Below are positions 40,223 to 46,402 of a DNA stretch of 64,000 bases, piece by piece. The notes under the pieces were generated by a model that was not told where the DNA came from, searched no databases, and saw nothing but the letters and a program-made list of their open reading frames with translations. This DNA comes from Roseicyclus mahoneyensis. GTDB taxonomy: Bacteria; Pseudomonadota; Alphaproteobacteria; Rhodobacterales; Rhodobacteraceae. How positions within the stretch are numbered: position 1 is the first letter of the stretch; the number at the start of each line of letters is the position of its first letter. The stretch spans positions 558,001 through 622,000 of the forward strand of contig NZ_QGGW01000001.1 in the NCBI RefSeq assembly GCF_003148775.1. The letters run 5' to 3'. A program made the position numbers and the translations under genes.

Positions 40223-40734
40223 GCGACCAACATGAGCGCGCGGTTCTGGCCGGCGGTTGTTTCTGGGGCGTGCAGGAGCTGATCCGGCACAAACCCGGCG
40301 TGATCGCCACCCGCGTGGGCTACACCGGCGGCGACGTGCCCAATGCGACCTACCGCAACCACGGAACGCATGCCGAGGGGATCGAGATCATCTTCGACCC
40401 CAGCGCGATCAGCTACCGCGAGATTCTCGAGTTCTTCTTCCAGATCCATGACCCGACGACCCCCAACCGGCAGGGGAACGACCGTGGCATGTCCTACCGT
40501 TCGGCAATCTACTATGTCGACGAGGCGCAAAAGGCCTGCGCGCTTGACACCATCGCCGATGTCGAGGCGTCGGGACTATGGCCCGGCCGCGTTGTGACCG
40601 AGGTGGAGCCGGTCGGCCCGTTCTGGGAGGCGGAGCCCGAGCATCAAGATTACCTGCAGCGCATCCCCCACGGCTACACCTGCCATTTCGTGCGCCCCGG
40701 CTGGGTGCTGCCACGGCGCGCGGCGGCAGAATGA
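40219..40734 (+). CDS. msrA: peptide-methionine (S)-S-oxide reductase
   Basis: The 171-residue enzyme has the catalytic motif [12 protein letters not shown], the family segments [20 protein letters not shown] and [15 protein letters not shown], and acts on the S-epimer. It is translationally coupled to msrB. The C-terminus lacks an obvious recycling cysteine pair, with only a single C in [10 protein letters not shown]. The shared bidirectional terminator follows 11 bases after the stop. Confidence 0.96.
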
Positions 40735-40745
40735 CCAAGAAAAAA

Positions 40746-40771
40746 GGCCGGGCACCTGCCCGGCCTTCTTC
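40746..40771. terminator. bidirectional terminator between msrA and the puc operon
   Basis: GGCCGGGC and GCCCGGCC flank a 4-base ACCT loop. Read on the minus strand it is followed by TTTTTTCTTGG and ends the puc operon; read on the plus strand it is followed by TTCTTC and can end msrBA. Confidence 0.9.
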
Positions 40772-40788
40772 AAGACGGTCGAAAGCGT

Positions 40789-41469
40789 TCAGCGACGGGC
40801 CGACAGGCCCCGAAATCCGAGCTTTTCGAAAATGCGCGGATGGCCCGACATCACCGATGACTTGTGCGGCGTCGAGACCGACCGGGACGAACTGAGGAAC
40901 AACCGCCCGCCCGAGATCACACGCGACGGACGCGGTTTGGCGCTGAGCAGCGGGCGCGGCCAGAACCCGCGCGACATGTAGCGCGTGCCCTGCATCACCG
41001 ACAGCTTGTAATCGCGGCGACGCGACACGGTCGGGAACCCGAAGACGTCGGACATGCGCCAACCTGCCCAGCCCGATCCGACGTAGTCGTCCCGCGTCAT
41101 CATGAGCGGATGCTTGGGCAAGATGCGCGGCGTCTGCATGTCGAGGTCGGCGACCTCGCGGATGTATTCGTTGCACTTGCCCCGTCCTGCATCGATCCAC
41201 GCCTCGCTGTCGGCGACGGTCATGGCGACGCGGGCAGCCCCGAAAGGCGTGACAGGTGCGCGACAGACCAGCAGCGCCTGCCCGGCCTTCATCGCGCGCG
41301 CATAGGCGGCGGTTGCGGCCTCACCGACGCGGGCGGCCGCGATCAGCCCGGCATCGGGCGTCGTGATGACCGACAGGGTGCTTTCGGGAAAGCCTTTGGC
41401 GCGCAACTGGTCTGCGACGCGCGTCGCGGTATCGACCGTATCATAAAGCCGTGAGACGACGGTGGTCAT
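40789..41469 (-). CDS. puc-operon distal gene, YflT-like N-terminus
   Basis: The 226-residue protein starts MTTVVSRLYDTVDTATRVAD, which resembles the YflT/general-stress fold (a flavodoxin-like domain of about 100 residues). The C-terminal half is basic and unusual: LMMTRDDYVGSGWAGWRMSD, TRYMSRGFWPRPLLSAKPRP and a Ser/Arg-rich stretch. There are no membrane segments. The start overlaps the end of pucC by 29 bases behind a strong GGAGGAGAG site, so it belongs to the operon. Rhodobacter puc operons carry small extra genes (pucD, pucE) here, but I cannot equate it with either. Confidence 0.75.
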   Translation of the reverse strand: MTTVVSRLYDTVDTATRVADQLRAKGFPESTLSVITTPDAGLIAAARVGEAATAAYARAMKAGQALLVCRAPVTPFGAARVAMTVADSEAWIDAGRGKCNEYIREVADLDMQTPRILPKHPLMMTRDDYVGSGWAGWRMSDVFGFPTVSRRRDYKLSVMQGTRYMSRGFWPRPLLSAKPRPSRVISGGRLFLSSSRSVSTPHKSSVMSGHPRIFEKLGFRGLSARR

Positions 41470-42952
41470 GTGGCTCTCCTCCTGAGGGCCGCCTGTCTGG
41501 CGGCGTGGGGTCACTGGGCACAGCGTAGGGATCCGGTCCATCCTTGCTGCAGGTATAGCTCATGGTCTGGGAAAGTCTCGCCTGTTTGCGGCGCAGCGCA
41601 AAAATGGCCACAACGGCAGCCAGCAAAAGAGCCAGCTCCAGAGTGAACACTGGCGTATAGGCCGCCTCGGGGCGGAAGGTGTCGGCATTTGGCAGCGTCA
41701 GGATCATGTCGCGAAGAATCCCGCCAAGCGCCACCGCGATGCCGGCCGCCGTGGCCTGAACCGCACCCCATGCGCCAAGGGCCAGCCCCACCTGCGCGCG
41801 CGGCGCGCTGCGCATCGTGGCCGTCAGCGTGCCATGGCCGAACAACCCCGCACCAAGCCCGGCAAAGGCGGTGCCGATCACGAACATCGACGTCTCGCCC
41901 ATCGGGCCTGATCCGATGATGAGGGCAAAGGCCGGTACGCCGATCAAGGCCCCCCACCACGCCACGTCCAGCGGATCATGCCCATCGAGCAATACCTTGG
42001 ACGCAATGGCAAATCCCACCAGCCCGCCGCCCGCCAGCACGGCGGTCAGGCGCGTGGTCGCGGCCACCGACAGATCTAGCACCTGCCCGCCATAAGGTTC
42101 GAGCAACACATCGGCCATGCCGAAGCCCATGGTTCCCAAAGCGATGACGATCAAAAGACCCACCGCCGTCCGCCCGCGCACGAACAACCGCCAGGCGTCG
42201 ATGAACTCGGGATGGGTCTCCACCCGGTTGGCACGGGCACGGTCGCGCGGCTCTTGCTTCCAGAGGGCGATCAGGTTCAGCGCCACGGTCACGACCGCCG
42301 CCCCCTGCACCACGCGGATCAGCCTTCCGGGCGTGTAGTCTTGCAACAGCCAGCCAAAGATCAGGGCCGAGGCGATCATGCCCAAAAGCAGCATGACATA
42401 CATCAGGCCCACAACCTTGGGTTGATCCTCGACCTCGACCAGATCGGTGGCAAGCGCCAAACCCACGGTCTGCACGGTATGCACACCCGCCCCCACCAGC
42501 AAAAAGGCAAGTGCGGCCGCCGATTGGCCAATCCAGGGTGCGGCATCCGCCGCTTCCCGGTAACCCGACAACACCAGAAGCGCGAAGGGCATGATGGCAA
42601 AACCGCCGAACTGCAGCATCGTGCCTTTCCAGATGTAGGGCACGCGCCGCCAGCCAAGCGCGGATGTGTGGATGTCGGATTTGTAGCCAATGAAGGCGCG
42701 GAAGGGCGCAAAGACCAGCGGCAATGCAATCATCAGCGCGACAAGCGAGGCGGGAACCGACAGTTCCACGATCATCACCCGGTTCAGCGTGCCGACCAGC
42801 AGCACCAGCGCCATGCCGACCGTCACCTGGAACAGCGACAGGCGCAGCAGACGCGACAGCGGCACGGCCTCGGTCGCGACATCGGCAAAGGGCAGGAATC
42901 GCGGTGCGATGCCCTGTATCTTGCTGAGCGCGGTACTGCGGAGGCTGGCCAT
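41441..42952 (-). CDS. pucC: LH2 assembly factor PucC (BCH2-family MFS)
   Basis: The 503-residue membrane protein has about twelve transmembrane segments and the PucC/LhaA hallmarks: LSLFQVTVGMALVLLVGTLN, the loop PFRAFIGYKSDIHTSALGWR, VPYIWKGTMLQFGGFAIMPF and GLALATDLVEVEDQPKVVGL. These proteins are needed for assembly or delivery of pigment to the peripheral antenna. The C-terminal tail after the last helix (about 445-503) is long and hydrophilic and overlaps the next gene. It lies 131 bases downstream of pucA. Confidence 0.95.
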   Translation of the reverse strand: MASLRSTALSKIQGIAPRFLPFADVATEAVPLSRLLRLSLFQVTVGMALVLLVGTLNRVMIVELSVPASLVALMIALPLVFAPFRAFIGYKSDIHTSALGWRRVPYIWKGTMLQFGGFAIMPFALLVLSGYREAADAAPWIGQSAAALAFLLVGAGVHTVQTVGLALATDLVEVEDQPKVVGLMYVMLLLGMIASALIFGWLLQDYTPGRLIRVVQGAAVVTVALNLIALWKQEPRDRARANRVETHPEFIDAWRLFVRGRTAVGLLIVIALGTMGFGMADVLLEPYGGQVLDLSVAATTRLTAVLAGGGLVGFAIASKVLLDGHDPLDVAWWGALIGVPAFALIIGSGPMGETSMFVIGTAFAGLGAGLFGHGTLTATMRSAPRAQVGLALGAWGAVQATAAGIAVALGGILRDMILTLPNADTFRPEAAYTPVFTLELALLLAAVVAIFALRRKQARLSQTMSYTCSKDGPDPYAVPSDPTPPDRRPSGGEPHDHRRLTAL

Positions 42953-43083: not shown

Positions 43084-43419
43084 TTACCGCAATGCGGCCT
43101 GGGTCAGATCATCCACCACCAAGGTCGCGGTCCGGCCATCGGGCAGGATCACGCGCAGCGACTGGCTGCCGTCGGCATTCGCTTCGATATACATCGGGAG
43201 CGTGGCTGCCGCCTCACCCGATGCCGGAACGATTGCGCGCTCGGTGGCCAGAGCAGCGGTCTCACCACCGGCCGAACTGCCGGAGAGAAAATCCGCAACC
43301 CAAGTCGTGTTGGTCAGCACCGCCACATGGACGGCGAAAGACCCCACGGCCACGGCACCGAGGAACAGGGGAACGCCCACGGTCGGTTTGACCACGAGCC
43401 ACATCTTTGCGTTATTCAT
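43084..43419 (-). CDS. pucA: LH2 alpha polypeptide with C-terminal extension
   Basis: The first 50 residues are a standard LH2 alpha chain ([20 protein letters not shown]), with His31 as the bacteriochlorophyll ligand and Trp40. Positions 44-45, Tyr-Tyr in R. sphaeroides, are Phe-Leu. Usual alpha chains stop near residue 54; this one continues to 111 with a soluble Ala/Glu-rich linker and a segment [18 protein letters not shown] that looks like a small beta structure. It lies 12 bases after pucB. TAA stop; the reading frame is continuous, and the extension uses the same GC-rich codons. Confidence 0.93.
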
Positions 43420-43431
43420 GATGTGTTCCCT

Positions 43432-43587
43432 TCAGCCGAGCCACGGCGTGGACACGGCGACCAGCACATGCGCCAGAAGCGCGATCGCACCGAAGACGCG
43501 TGTGCCGTCAATGAGGTAGCTATGTACCTCTTCTGCTTCTTTCAGGGTCAGACCGGTCGGCCAGACCTTATCGGGATCGTCGGACAT
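43432..43587 (-). CDS. pucB: LH2 beta polypeptide
   Basis: The 51-residue chain MSDDPDKVWPTGLTLKEAEE continues with His22 (EVHSYLIDGT) and His40 (LLAHVLVAVSTPWLG). His40 is the ligand for the strongly coupled ring pigment, and the region around His22 lies near the monomeric B800 site. One transmembrane helix spans about 24-45. It is first in the puc operon, behind GGAGGGG, and 12 bases before pucA. A longer in-frame extension upstream to 43692 has no LH character. Confidence 0.96.
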   Translation of the reverse strand: MSDDPDKVWPTGLTLKEAEEVHSYLIDGTRVFGAIALLAHVLVAVSTPWLG

Positions 43588-43686: not shown

Positions 43687-43704
43687 TGTCACGTAAACCT
43701 GACA
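43687..43704. promoter_or_regulatory. PpsR/CrtJ site 1 (TGT-N12-ACA)
   Basis: TGT (43687-43689), 12 bases, ACA (43702-43704) is an exact match to the repressor consensus of PpsR/CrtJ, the redox- and light-responsive repressor of photosynthesis genes in Rhodobacter. It lies about 100 bases upstream of pucB. Confidence 0.85.
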
Positions 43705-43712
43705 TATTCAAC

Positions 43713-43730
43713 TGTAAATCAAACGAGACA
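43713..43730. promoter_or_regulatory. PpsR/CrtJ site 2 (TGT-N12-ACA)
   Basis: TGT (43713-43715), 12 bases, ACA (43728-43730). It is separated from site 1 by 8 bases, the spacing known for cooperative CrtJ binding at tandem palindromes. The puc promoter is expected to overlap these sites, but I cannot fix its -35 and -10 boxes with confidence. Confidence 0.85.
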
Positions 43731-43852: not shown

Positions 43853-44794
43853 TCAGACCGGTCGGGCAAGGCTTTGCGGCAGCAGGGCTTGGACCATCGC
43901 CGCATCGCACAGCTCCGTGGCGGGCGTCGTTACCGCAGCGCTTGCGGCGGCGCATCCATGGCTCAGCACCTCGGGCAAGGGCAGACCGCGCGACAGGGCC
44001 AGAACGGCGCCCGCAACGAAACTGTCGCCCGCCCCGGTGCGCGAGACGACCGGCACCCGCGCGGCGGGTGCCATCCACCACCCCTCGAAGCTCGCCAGAA
44101 CCGAGCCTTCGGCGCCGCGCGCGACGATCACCACATCGGCCGCTCCCTGCGCCACCAGATCGGCGGCGAAGGCCGCGCTGTCGGCGGCGGTCTGCAAGGC
44201 GCGACCTGCCAGCGCCACCGATTCCTCGAAATCCACCCGCAAGAGCGCCATCCCCGTCCGCGCCCCGGCCAAGGCCACCAGCCCCGCGCCCGATGTGTCG
44301 GCGACGACTTTAGCGCCCTGCCCCGTCAACCGCCGCACCAGATCGACCAGCGCGCCCGGCGACACACCCGGCGGAAGGGAGCCTGACAGGACCACCCAAT
44401 CCCCCGGCGCGCAATGCGTTGAAAGGGCCTCGGTCGCGGCCGTCATATCCTCGGGCGTCCATGTCGGCCCGGGAAAGATGAAGCGGAACTGGCGCCCTGT
44501 CGTCGTCTCGATCACCGAAAGGTTCTGGCGCATCTCGCCCGGTGCTGGCAGGCGCAAGACGGGCACGTCATGCGCGGCCAGCATCCGCTCCAGCGCATCA
44601 CCGCCCGCGCCGCCTGCGGCCACCAGCGCCGTGGCCTCGCCGCCCAGCTGCACGATGGCGCGCGCCACATTGATGCCGCCACCGCCGGGATCGCGCGCTG
44701 GATCCGTGCAGCGCAGCTTTTCGCCCGGCATGACCTCGGGCGTCGTGGTCTCGAGATCAAGCGCGGGGTTGAACGTGACGGTCAAGATGGACAT
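43853..44794 (-). CDS. PfkB-family hexose kinase (phosphofructokinase-like)
   Basis: The 313-residue ribokinase-fold enzyme starts MSILTVTFNPALDLETTTPE and has the tagatose/fructose-kinase signature DPGGGGINVARAIVQLGGEA, FIFPGP, VVLSGSLPPGV and the catalytic SRTGAGDSFVAG. The N-terminal TVTFNPALD and GGGGINVARA sit with FruK/LacC/PfkB kinases, so the substrate is probably a fructose or tagatose phosphate. Its terminus faces the puc regulatory region; its role as the cell's phosphofructokinase is possible but unproven. Confidence 0.88.
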   Translation of the reverse strand: MSILTVTFNPALDLETTTPEVMPGEKLRCTDPARDPGGGGINVARAIVQLGGEATALVAAGGAGGDALERMLAAHDVPVLRLPAPGEMRQNLSVIETTTGRQFRFIFPGPTWTPEDMTAATEALSTHCAPGDWVVLSGSLPPGVSPGALVDLVRRLTGQGAKVVADTSGAGLVALAGARTGMALLRVDFEESVALAGRALQTAADSAAFAADLVAQGAADVVIVARGAEGSVLASFEGWWMAPAARVPVVSRTGAGDSFVAGAVLALSRGLPLPEVLSHGCAAASAAVTTPATELCDAAMVQALLPQSLARPV

Positions 44795-44848: not shown

Positions 44849-46402
44849 TCAGGGGCGGAGGTGAAACTGCGCGCCTTCGCCCGCGCTCAATTGATCGACA
44901 AGACCCTTTTCCCACGACAGATACAGGCGCGAGGCATCGGCATCGCCGTCATGACGGCCATGGGCAAAGCTGATGACATCGACCGCCTCGGACATCTCCA
45001 TCGCAGCCCCCGCGACGATCACCGCCCCGGCAGCGGCAAGCGCGGGCAAGCCACCCTCGACCACCCGCACGTCCGCGCGGCCCAGTGCCGACAGGGTTGT
45101 GGCCGCCAGAACGGCGCGCGGGCTTGCATCGCCGATCAGGTAGATCGCTTCGGGCCCCGCGGACAGATCGCGCAGGCGCGACCTGATCGACCATTGCGCA
45201 CCTGCGACCGTGCCGTTCCGGTGGACGGCTGAGGCGCGCAAATCGACCAGACGCGCCCGGCCCGTCGCCACATCGGCAAGCGCGCGATCGGCCGCAATCC
45301 GGGGCGCTGGGGCGATGGCGGGGTCGGGGCGCGCGACGGGCGGAAGGTCGCGCAGCGCGTCGGTCAGCGTGCAGACCGCGACCTCATACCCCAAGGCGCG
45401 CAGCCAATAGGCCGCCAAACCGCCCCTCAGACCCAGATCGTCGACCAGCACCACCCGGGCGCGGCGCAGACCGATGAACAGGTCGGTCGCCTGCACCAAC
45501 GTGACCACCGGCGCGGACCGGGCGCAGGGAACCGGGTCCGCCGCCGTCTCGGCCGGGTCGCGCACATCCAGCACATAGGTTGTGCGCGTGGTGTCCGACA
45601 GCATCGCCGCCACCTCGGCTGCCCCTGCTTCGGGGATCTTGTGCCGTTCGATGAACATCGTCGCCCGGGCGCGGGTGGAGTCCGGGTCACCCGGCGGCAG
45701 GGCGGCGGGTGTCACATCGCGGACCAGATCGAACCCCGCCAGCCGCCAGCCCTGCGTGCCATCCTCAAGCCACCAGACCTCGCGCTCGGGCGCGATCAGC
45801 GACAGGCTGGCCGCGCCGACGATGCCGCGGGTGCGGCCCGCGCAGGTCAGCACGATGGGCAGGCCCTCGGGCAGGCTGTCGAGGCGATGGGGCAATTCCC
45901 CGTTGGGCAGGCAGGTAGCACCGGGCACGGTCATCTTGGCATGTTCCGCCGCGGGCCGCGTGTCGAAGAACAAGACGTCACGCCCCCCCGACAGCCATTT
46001 TGCCAGATCGGCAGGCGCCACGGGGCGCGGATGCAGCGCCAGTTCCGCCAGCTCGCCCAAGGTCTTGGAGGGAACATGCACCCCCTTGTAGAGCGTGTAT
46101 CCCGCCGCCGCCCAAGCGGGCGTGCCGCCCGCGACGACCGACACATCGCTGTAGCCCATGTCGGCAAGCGTTTCGGCGGCCATCTGGGCGATCTTGTCAC
46201 CACCGTCGATCAAGATGATGGGGGCCGACAGGCGCGGTACCAGCGCGCCTATGGCCAGTTCCATCTCGCTGAAGGGGCAAGGCACTGCAAAAAGCGGATG
46301 GCCCTCGGAAAACGGTCCGGCCTCGCGCAGGTCGATCAGCGCGACCTCATGGTGCCCCAGAACCCGCGCCGCTGCCTGCGCGGGTGTGATGATGTCGGAC
46401 AT
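44849..46402 (-). CDS. four-domain rhodanese-like protein
   Basis: The 517-residue cytoplasmic protein is built of four rhodanese folds: about 1-108, 112-212, 240-355 and 370-475. Only the second has a catalytic cysteine (Cys187 in VLTCAGRTRGIVG). The other active-site loops read IDGGDK, VDDLGLRG and IGDASPRA and lack it. It probably transfers or carries sulfur from thiosulfate or a persulfide through domain 2, with the rest as scaffold. It is 54 bases from the PfkB gene and 35 from mnhG, on the same strand. Confidence 0.88.
   Translation of the reverse strand: MSDIITPAQAAARVLGHHEVALIDLREAGPFSEGHPLFAVPCPFSEMELAIGALVPRLSAPIILIDGGDKIAQMAAETLADMGYSDVSVVAGGTPAWAAAGYTLYKGVHVPSKTLGELAELALHPRPVAPADLAKWLSGGRDVLFFDTRPAAEHAKMTVPGATCLPNGELPHRLDSLPEGLPIVLTCAGRTRGIVGAASLSLIAPEREVWWLEDGTQGWRLAGFDLVRDVTPAALPPGDPDSTRARATMFIERHKIPEAGAAEVAAMLSDTTRTTYVLDVRDPAETAADPVPCARSAPVVTLVQATDLFIGLRRARVVLVDDLGLRGGLAAYWLRALGYEVAVCTLTDALRDLPPVARPDPAIAPAPRIAADRALADVATGRARLVDLRASAVHRNGTVAGAQWSIRSRLRDLSAGPEAIYLIGDASPRAVLAATTLSALGRADVRVVEGGLPALAAAGAVIVAGAAMEMSEAVDVISFAHGRHDGDADASRLYLSWEKGLVDQLSAGEGAQFHLRP

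Follow-up and report, generated by a model that had tools for sequence, protein, structure and literature searches.

Phe44-Leu45 in the PucA of Roseicyclus mahoneyensis points to a High-800 (LH4) peripheral antenna with a predicted band near 805 nm

Which near-infrared band the peripheral antenna of Roseicyclus mahoneyensis absorbs is a question raised by one small gene in a stretch of 64,000 nucleotides of its genome (the window). The ORF pucA (43084–43419, minus strand, stop codon included) encodes a 111-residue LH2 alpha subunit, as judged from a match to PF00556 (LHC) above the cut-off (E 1.2e-12), a central histidine, and adjoining pucB and pucC genes. A sequence-only reading had reported Phe and Leu at alpha positions 44 and 45, and minus-strand translation bears this out exactly. 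By direct count, F44 lies at 43290–43288 and L45 at 43287–43285 (codons 44–45, 43285–43290), where PDB alignments place the hydrogen-bond donors Tyr-Tyr or Tyr-Trp of other antennas. The surrounding sequence is W40-V41-A42-D43-F44-L45, and residues 31–47 read H31 V A V L T N T T W40 V41 A D F44 L45 S G47. His31 (43327–43329, minus strand), the B850 ligand by homology, is invariant in a 37-sequence alignment. The span 43270–43419 first assigned to the gene is indeed part of pucA, but it holds only codons 1–50 of an ORF that extends to 43084, and its plus-strand translation is not PucA. The protein therefore has 111 rather than about 50 residues, including 64 beyond G47 that the earlier reading lacked. 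This C-terminal tail (codons 48–111, 43087–43278, minus strand), by homology on the periplasmic side, carries a conserved [LM][PS]DG-type motif found by alignment and pattern count (LPDG here), and has three short strands in a low-confidence structure model.

Two kinds of blue-shifted LH2 share the loss of donors at positions 44 and 45. According to PMC9618040, two hydrogen bonds to the C3-acetyl groups give a band at ~850 nm, one gives ~825 nm and none ~800 nm. The same paper describes an LH3 in which Tyr41 hydrogen-bonds the pigment and the band lies at ~820–824 nm, and a PucD-LH2 of Rps. palustris with one near-infrared band, at 803 nm, and no hydrogen bonds to B850; its text gives PucD residues 44/45 in both orders, and the PDB sequence is F44-M45. 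The window PucA has the Phe44-Leu45 of LH3 (B800-820) in place of Tyr-Trp or Tyr-Tyr, but codon 41 (43297–43299, minus strand) translates as Val, as in PucD (7ZE3), where LH3 (1IJD) keeps Tyr41 as its remaining donor. For this reason the LH3 label proposed in the sequence-only reading does not hold, although Tyr41 is not universal under that name, since 9DWZ, a second PDB entry named B-800/820, has Phe41-Phe44-Gln45. With Val41, Phe44 and Leu45, all three alpha-chain donors are absent, as in PucD-LH2, and with Val41 instead of Tyr41 the band is predicted at ~805 nm, not ~820 nm. PucD-LH2 7ZE3 also heads the PDB sequence matches, ahead of 7PBW and LH3 1IJD.

Two further sequence-level features of a High-800 (LH4) antenna were also found. 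In a 2025 review (PMC12654162), F44-L45 is given as a motif common to aerobic phototrophs whose LH4 absorbs at ~800 nm, and R. mahoneyensis itself is named there, with Roseobacter and Dinoroseobacter, among the ~800 nm F44L45 peripheral antennas. Table 2 of that review lists peripheral bands at 806 nm for R. mahoneyensis and Roseobacter litoralis, 804 nm for Dinoroseobacter shibae and 805 nm for Hoeflea phototrophica, which upholds the analogy with Roseobacter drawn earlier. PMC5783997 also likens PucD-LH2 to the Roseobacter form. The values given for Roseicyclus elongatum conflict, being '802, 850 (shoulder)' in PMC12654162 and, in PMC4149021, 879 nm plus a band at 800 nm that is attributed to the reaction centre, suggesting that spectra may differ within the genus. 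The aerobic phototroph form is also the sole peripheral antenna of its cell, and a second pucBA, whose absence the earlier prediction had depended on, was looked for genome-wide without result. The genome (99.99% complete) has four LHC matches, namely the window pair, which is its one pucBA, and a pair beside the reaction-centre genes on contig C2.

We therefore consider it highly probable (roughly 0.86) that the window PucA serves as alpha subunit in a High-800 (LH4, PucD-like) LH2 with a predicted band at ~804–806 nm. The earlier expectation of an antenna well below 850 nm is thus sustained by the loss of donors at 44/45 together with homologues of known spectra, from which the wavelength and the hydrogen-bond mechanism are extrapolated. 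In this mechanism, His31 of alpha and a histidine of beta would bind the coupled bacteriochlorophyll pair in the usual way, while Val41, Phe44 and Leu45 would offer no hydrogen bond to the C3-acetyl groups. These groups would then not be kept in the ring plane, raising the site energies and moving the '850' band to ~804–806 nm, where it would merge with the B800 band. As the sole peripheral antenna, the complex would be expected to give a single band near 805 nm beside an LH1 band near 870 nm. An F44-L45 antenna at ~805 nm is of a kind already known, and the window adds one more genome to it.

The pair is also not the special signature it had been taken for, but the norm of its group. In a family sample of 394 genomes drawn evenly, 55 had a PucA match, comprising 42 with F44-L45, three with Tyr at 41 and 44, nine with other pairs (YY, YH, FY, YW) and one that could not be read (G296); F44-L45 is the ordinary state in this lineage. 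In the unread case (G296:C1:26175-26467, L169) the match runs across two frames, reflecting a frameshift either in the gene or in the assembly. Of 205 relatives found, 80 loci were retained, and 75 of these had the pair as well, in a list that leans towards F-L as the query was itself F-L; PucA is 82–89% identical to that of the window in the four nearest Roseicyclus-named loci. These 80 loci were joined with 20 picked from the even family sample, unusual types first, to give a 100-locus set in which shares are not frequencies and L176 and L177 duplicate L091 and L041. Its 83 F-L PucA have Val41 and Ser27 (codon 27, 43339–43341, minus strand, in the window) without exception, and Asp43 in 82. 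The tail motif pattern matched 78 of these 83, and four more read KMPDG or QMPDG by eye, for a total of 82; L187 is the sole F-L PucA of the set without it. Among the family genomes, the DG tail was found in 41 of 42 with F-L and all three with Tyr-Tyr, versus none of the 14 PucA from the nine other-pair genomes, some of which bear long Ala/Pro/Glu-rich tails in its place. An F44-L45 PucA on G207:C10 (L139/L187) has Gly43 instead of Asp, and its tail, 19 residues long, is without the DG motif. Elsewhere in the family, three further genera contain Tyr41-Tyr44 PucA (L091/G279, L174/G068 and L175/G285). Mapped by a quick method on a PucC tree of 86 rows, this state required six changes, at least four of them forced by starred branches, and its clustering was no greater than that of shuffled labels.

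The puc genes lie together on the minus strand in the observed order pucB (LH2 beta subunit, 51 residues, 43432–43587), pucA, pucC (LH assembly factor, 41441–42952; PF03209, E 1.8e-147) and a fourth gene named pucX here (226 residues, 40789–41469), which starts at the end of pucC. Downstream of pucX, a terminator-like hairpin and its T run (40740–40771, minus strand) were recognised by folding energy: the region 40730–40785 folds at -32.2 kcal/mol (z -6.0), with none of 200 shuffles as stable, and the hairpin is not among the hits of a consensus terminator scan. A motif scan identified two TGT-N12-ACA boxes (43687–43704 and 43713–43730), which we take to be PpsR/CrtJ-like, 100–143 bp upstream of pucB; the window contains 13 such matches versus 5.2 expected. 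In both G369 and G395 a pair likewise precedes pucA by about this distance. The upstream neighbours, both on the minus strand, encode a PfkB sugar kinase (43853–44794) and a protein with four rhodanese stretches (44849–46402).

Two other accounts of the antenna phenotype were weighed. An LH3-type (B800-820) complex at ~820–826 nm, in which one hydrogen bond or another red-shifting contact is kept, would share F44-L45 with LH3 1IJD and recalls the Rba. sphaeroides alpha Tyr44/Tyr45 double mutant, which reached just 826 nm (PMC9618040). However, the Tyr41 donor of 1IJD is Val in the window and in all 83 F-L PucA of the 100-locus set, and the aerobic phototrophs that PMC12654162 names for F44L45 and lists with spectra lie at 804–806 nm, making this account improbable. 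Slightly less probable again is that the puc genes are silent or yield little LH2, so that the phenotype is that of LH1 alone. Several aerobic phototrophs in Table 2 of PMC12654162 have no peripheral band, but here pucB, pucA, pucC and pucX are intact, two PpsR-like boxes stand upstream and a terminator-like hairpin downstream, and the genes are conserved across relatives.

The double mutant nevertheless bears on how the High-800 band arises, as its stop at 826 nm indicates that loss of the 44/45 donors alone does not reach 805 nm. Retained Ser27 was suggested in PMC9618040 as a possible reason for the mutant's 826 nm. The F-L antennas at 804–806 nm should, by the inferred group membership of the spectrally known species, belong to the Ser27-bearing group, and Ser27 alone is therefore unlikely to be the reason. 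As Ser27 is constant among the F-L PucA of the 100-locus set, something else must supply the rest of the shift, for which Val41, loss of Pro42, Asp43 and the pigment pocket are candidates.

The genus itself contains two types of PucA. Twelve of the 13 genomes analysed from it have PucA, nine of the F-L type and three with H[LV]SVIGAGVGSWY[GS]PYVTG: Roseicyclus marinus CCMM001 (G395, locus L046), Roseibacterium persicicum KMU-115 (G396, L045) and HKCCSP123 (G398, L043), with loci and genomes paired through their contig coordinates. The thirteenth, G403 (92% complete), has no PucA match, through loss or an assembly gap. By DNA comparison the types differ block-wise over codons 18–52 (43264–43368, minus strand, in the window), a segment of ~105 bp that in the Tyr type has two extra residues and Tyr near positions 41 and 44, the insertion making this alignment uncertain; hydrogen bonds may be restored in these three proteins. 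Both ends of pucA are ~90% alike between the types. Between the window and L046, DNA identity is 93% in pucB and 78–83% in pucC, and along pucA it is 93% over codons 1–20, 70% over 21–30, 31% over 31–47, 54% over 48–75 and 88% over 76–111. In 51-nt windows, three F-L/Tyr-Tyr pairs drop to 35–37% around codons 27–33. The F-L/F-L pair of the window and G369 stays at 82–92% over nt 46–181 (up to the 51-nt window starting at nt 131), and its lowest value, 59%, comes where the tail starts, a variable stretch. The Tyr-Tyr pair of G396 and G395 holds 84–88% as far as the 51-nt window at nt 97 and has dropped to 63% by nt 148.

The history of the Tyr-type segment is at odds with those of rpoB and pucC. 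A tree of the segment (105 columns) joins the three carriers with 100/100 support on a branch of length 2.15. In contrast, an rpoB tree of 16 of 17 genomes (G403 was excluded for its partial rpoB and missing PucA match) places them on three branches, with G395 as sister of the F-L genome G369 (100/100), and rejects a single carrier clade (AU p 5.1e-47), as does pucC (AU p 0.0035). Over codons 31–47, DNA identity to L046 is 80% for L043 and 86% for L045, versus 27–35% for F-L copies, pointing to one shared origin of the three segments. Exchange of a short segment within pucA would be the simplest account of these patterns. That the two types arose without exchange, by ancestral polymorphism sorted by line or by repeated change of the segment under selection, is a minority possibility of real weight, given that the segment tree was built from 105 columns and includes one very long branch, that the short-flank tree (pucB and both ends of pucA) has little resolution and imposes no conflict, that the direction of change cannot be told, and that none of the PucA that could be read, in the 55 family genomes and in 12 of the 13 class genomes that had a match, looked like a donor. 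Against it stand the high identity of the three segments and the rejection of one carrier clade by both rpoB and pucC.

The fourth gene, pucX, tracks the class of PucA. In the 394-genome sample a pucX match was found in 41 of 42 F-L genomes and 3/3 Tyr-Tyr genomes (44/45 together), versus 1/10 with other (1/9) or unread (0/1) PucA. The F-L genome lacking it, G142, has a contig too short for the whole gene, and the only match among 339 genomes without PucA (G202) is weak and has three stops. In the 100-locus set pucX was detected in 87 loci by BLAST and 89 by profile. The distance from pucA to the pucX match was 1.58–1.68 kb in 13 of 14 genomes picked from 46, the exception being G235, where another pucX copy lies in between. 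Two tandem pucX-like matches, in open frames of 370 and 228 residues, lie downstream of pucC in this genome (G235:C83:58174-60102, the L041/L177 region).

PucX has no match in NCBIfam, and YflT (PF11181) was rejected at 16.5 bits against a Pfam cut-off of 26.2. In its structure model residues 1–100 form a confident N-terminal domain (block means 84–97), and the C-terminus is of low confidence and nearly devoid of secondary structure. The C-terminus is also basic (mean 17% K/R versus 4% D/E) and in most relatives repetitive: in 59 of 86 C-termini the best lag was 25 or 26 residues, and periodicity exceeded that of shuffles in 56/86, versus 2/87 N-terminal controls. Long forms of 345–369 residues number 12 among the 87 proteins (L041 and L177 are the same gene), with eight repeat units in 11 and ten in one, while the 75 short forms have one to four units in 72, five in one and none in two. 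In the window's own PucX a ~25-residue repeat was not significant against shuffles. A ribbon of repeats, the gamma polypeptide, surrounds Rps. palustris LH2, and its authors found it in Rhodopseudomonas only (PMC9618040). This polypeptide (7ZCU chain S) was tried as a relative of PucX and rejected, as a profile of its 16-residue repeat, EYKGxSGxPLI, does not single out PucX and scores real PucX C-termini about like shuffled ones; on sequence, the likeness is one of plan and not homology. No paper on a pucX-like gene was recognised in searches of the open-access literature.

These observations can be brought together in a joint reading that we offer only tentatively. The High-800 antenna of aerobic phototrophic Rhodobacterales would be a four-gene unit, pucB-A-C-X, with PucX as an accessory of the ring, and the colour of the ring would evolve by swaps of a ~105-bp pucA segment. 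PucX would then consist of a folded domain in the cytoplasm, which the model shows as ferredoxin-like, and a long basic ribbon built from ~25-residue repeats. This ribbon could run along the alpha-beta ring, in analogy to the gamma ribbon of Rps. palustris, to which it is unrelated, and potentially add an 800-nm pigment or stability to the ring.

Beyond the known F44-L45 kind of antenna, the segment difference and pucX are the less expected parts and those worth following. The genus is a natural experiment in which near-identical PucB, similar PucC and similar PucA ends are combined with two colour-tuning segments, permitting a direct test of hydrogen-bond control over the LH2 band, while the constancy of Ser27 in the F-L PucA examined is relevant to the 826 nm limit of the Rba. 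sphaeroides double mutant. In addition, pucX gives a large bacterial group a specific candidate for an LH2 component that has not been described.

Among known systems, Rba. sphaeroides LH2 (7PBW) resembles the window PucA in its N-terminal half, His31 and Ser27, but reads L41-P-A-Y44-Y45 and has no DG tail, and the genome bearing this PucA (G051) has no pucX match. LH3 of Rps. acidophila (1IJD, Y41-A-A-F44-L45) shares F44-L45 but has Tyr41 where the window has Val41. PucD-LH2 of Rps. palustris (7ZE3, V41-A-K-F44-M45) is like the window in V41, A42, a charged residue 43, F44 and a non-hydrogen-bonding residue 45, and differs in M45 for L45, Val27 for Ser27, a chain of 59 residues without the DG tail as opposed to 111 with it, and a gamma ribbon with a 16-residue repeat that pucX does not resemble in sequence. 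No sequence feature was found that separates the window PucA from the High-800/LH4 form of aerobic phototrophs. Two Roseobacter-named PucA (L079 and L104) have V41-F44-L45 and a tail of the window's kind, and the antenna of Roseobacter denitrificans and other aerobic phototrophs, as described in PMC12654162, is like that of the window in combining F44-L45 with the role of sole peripheral antenna.
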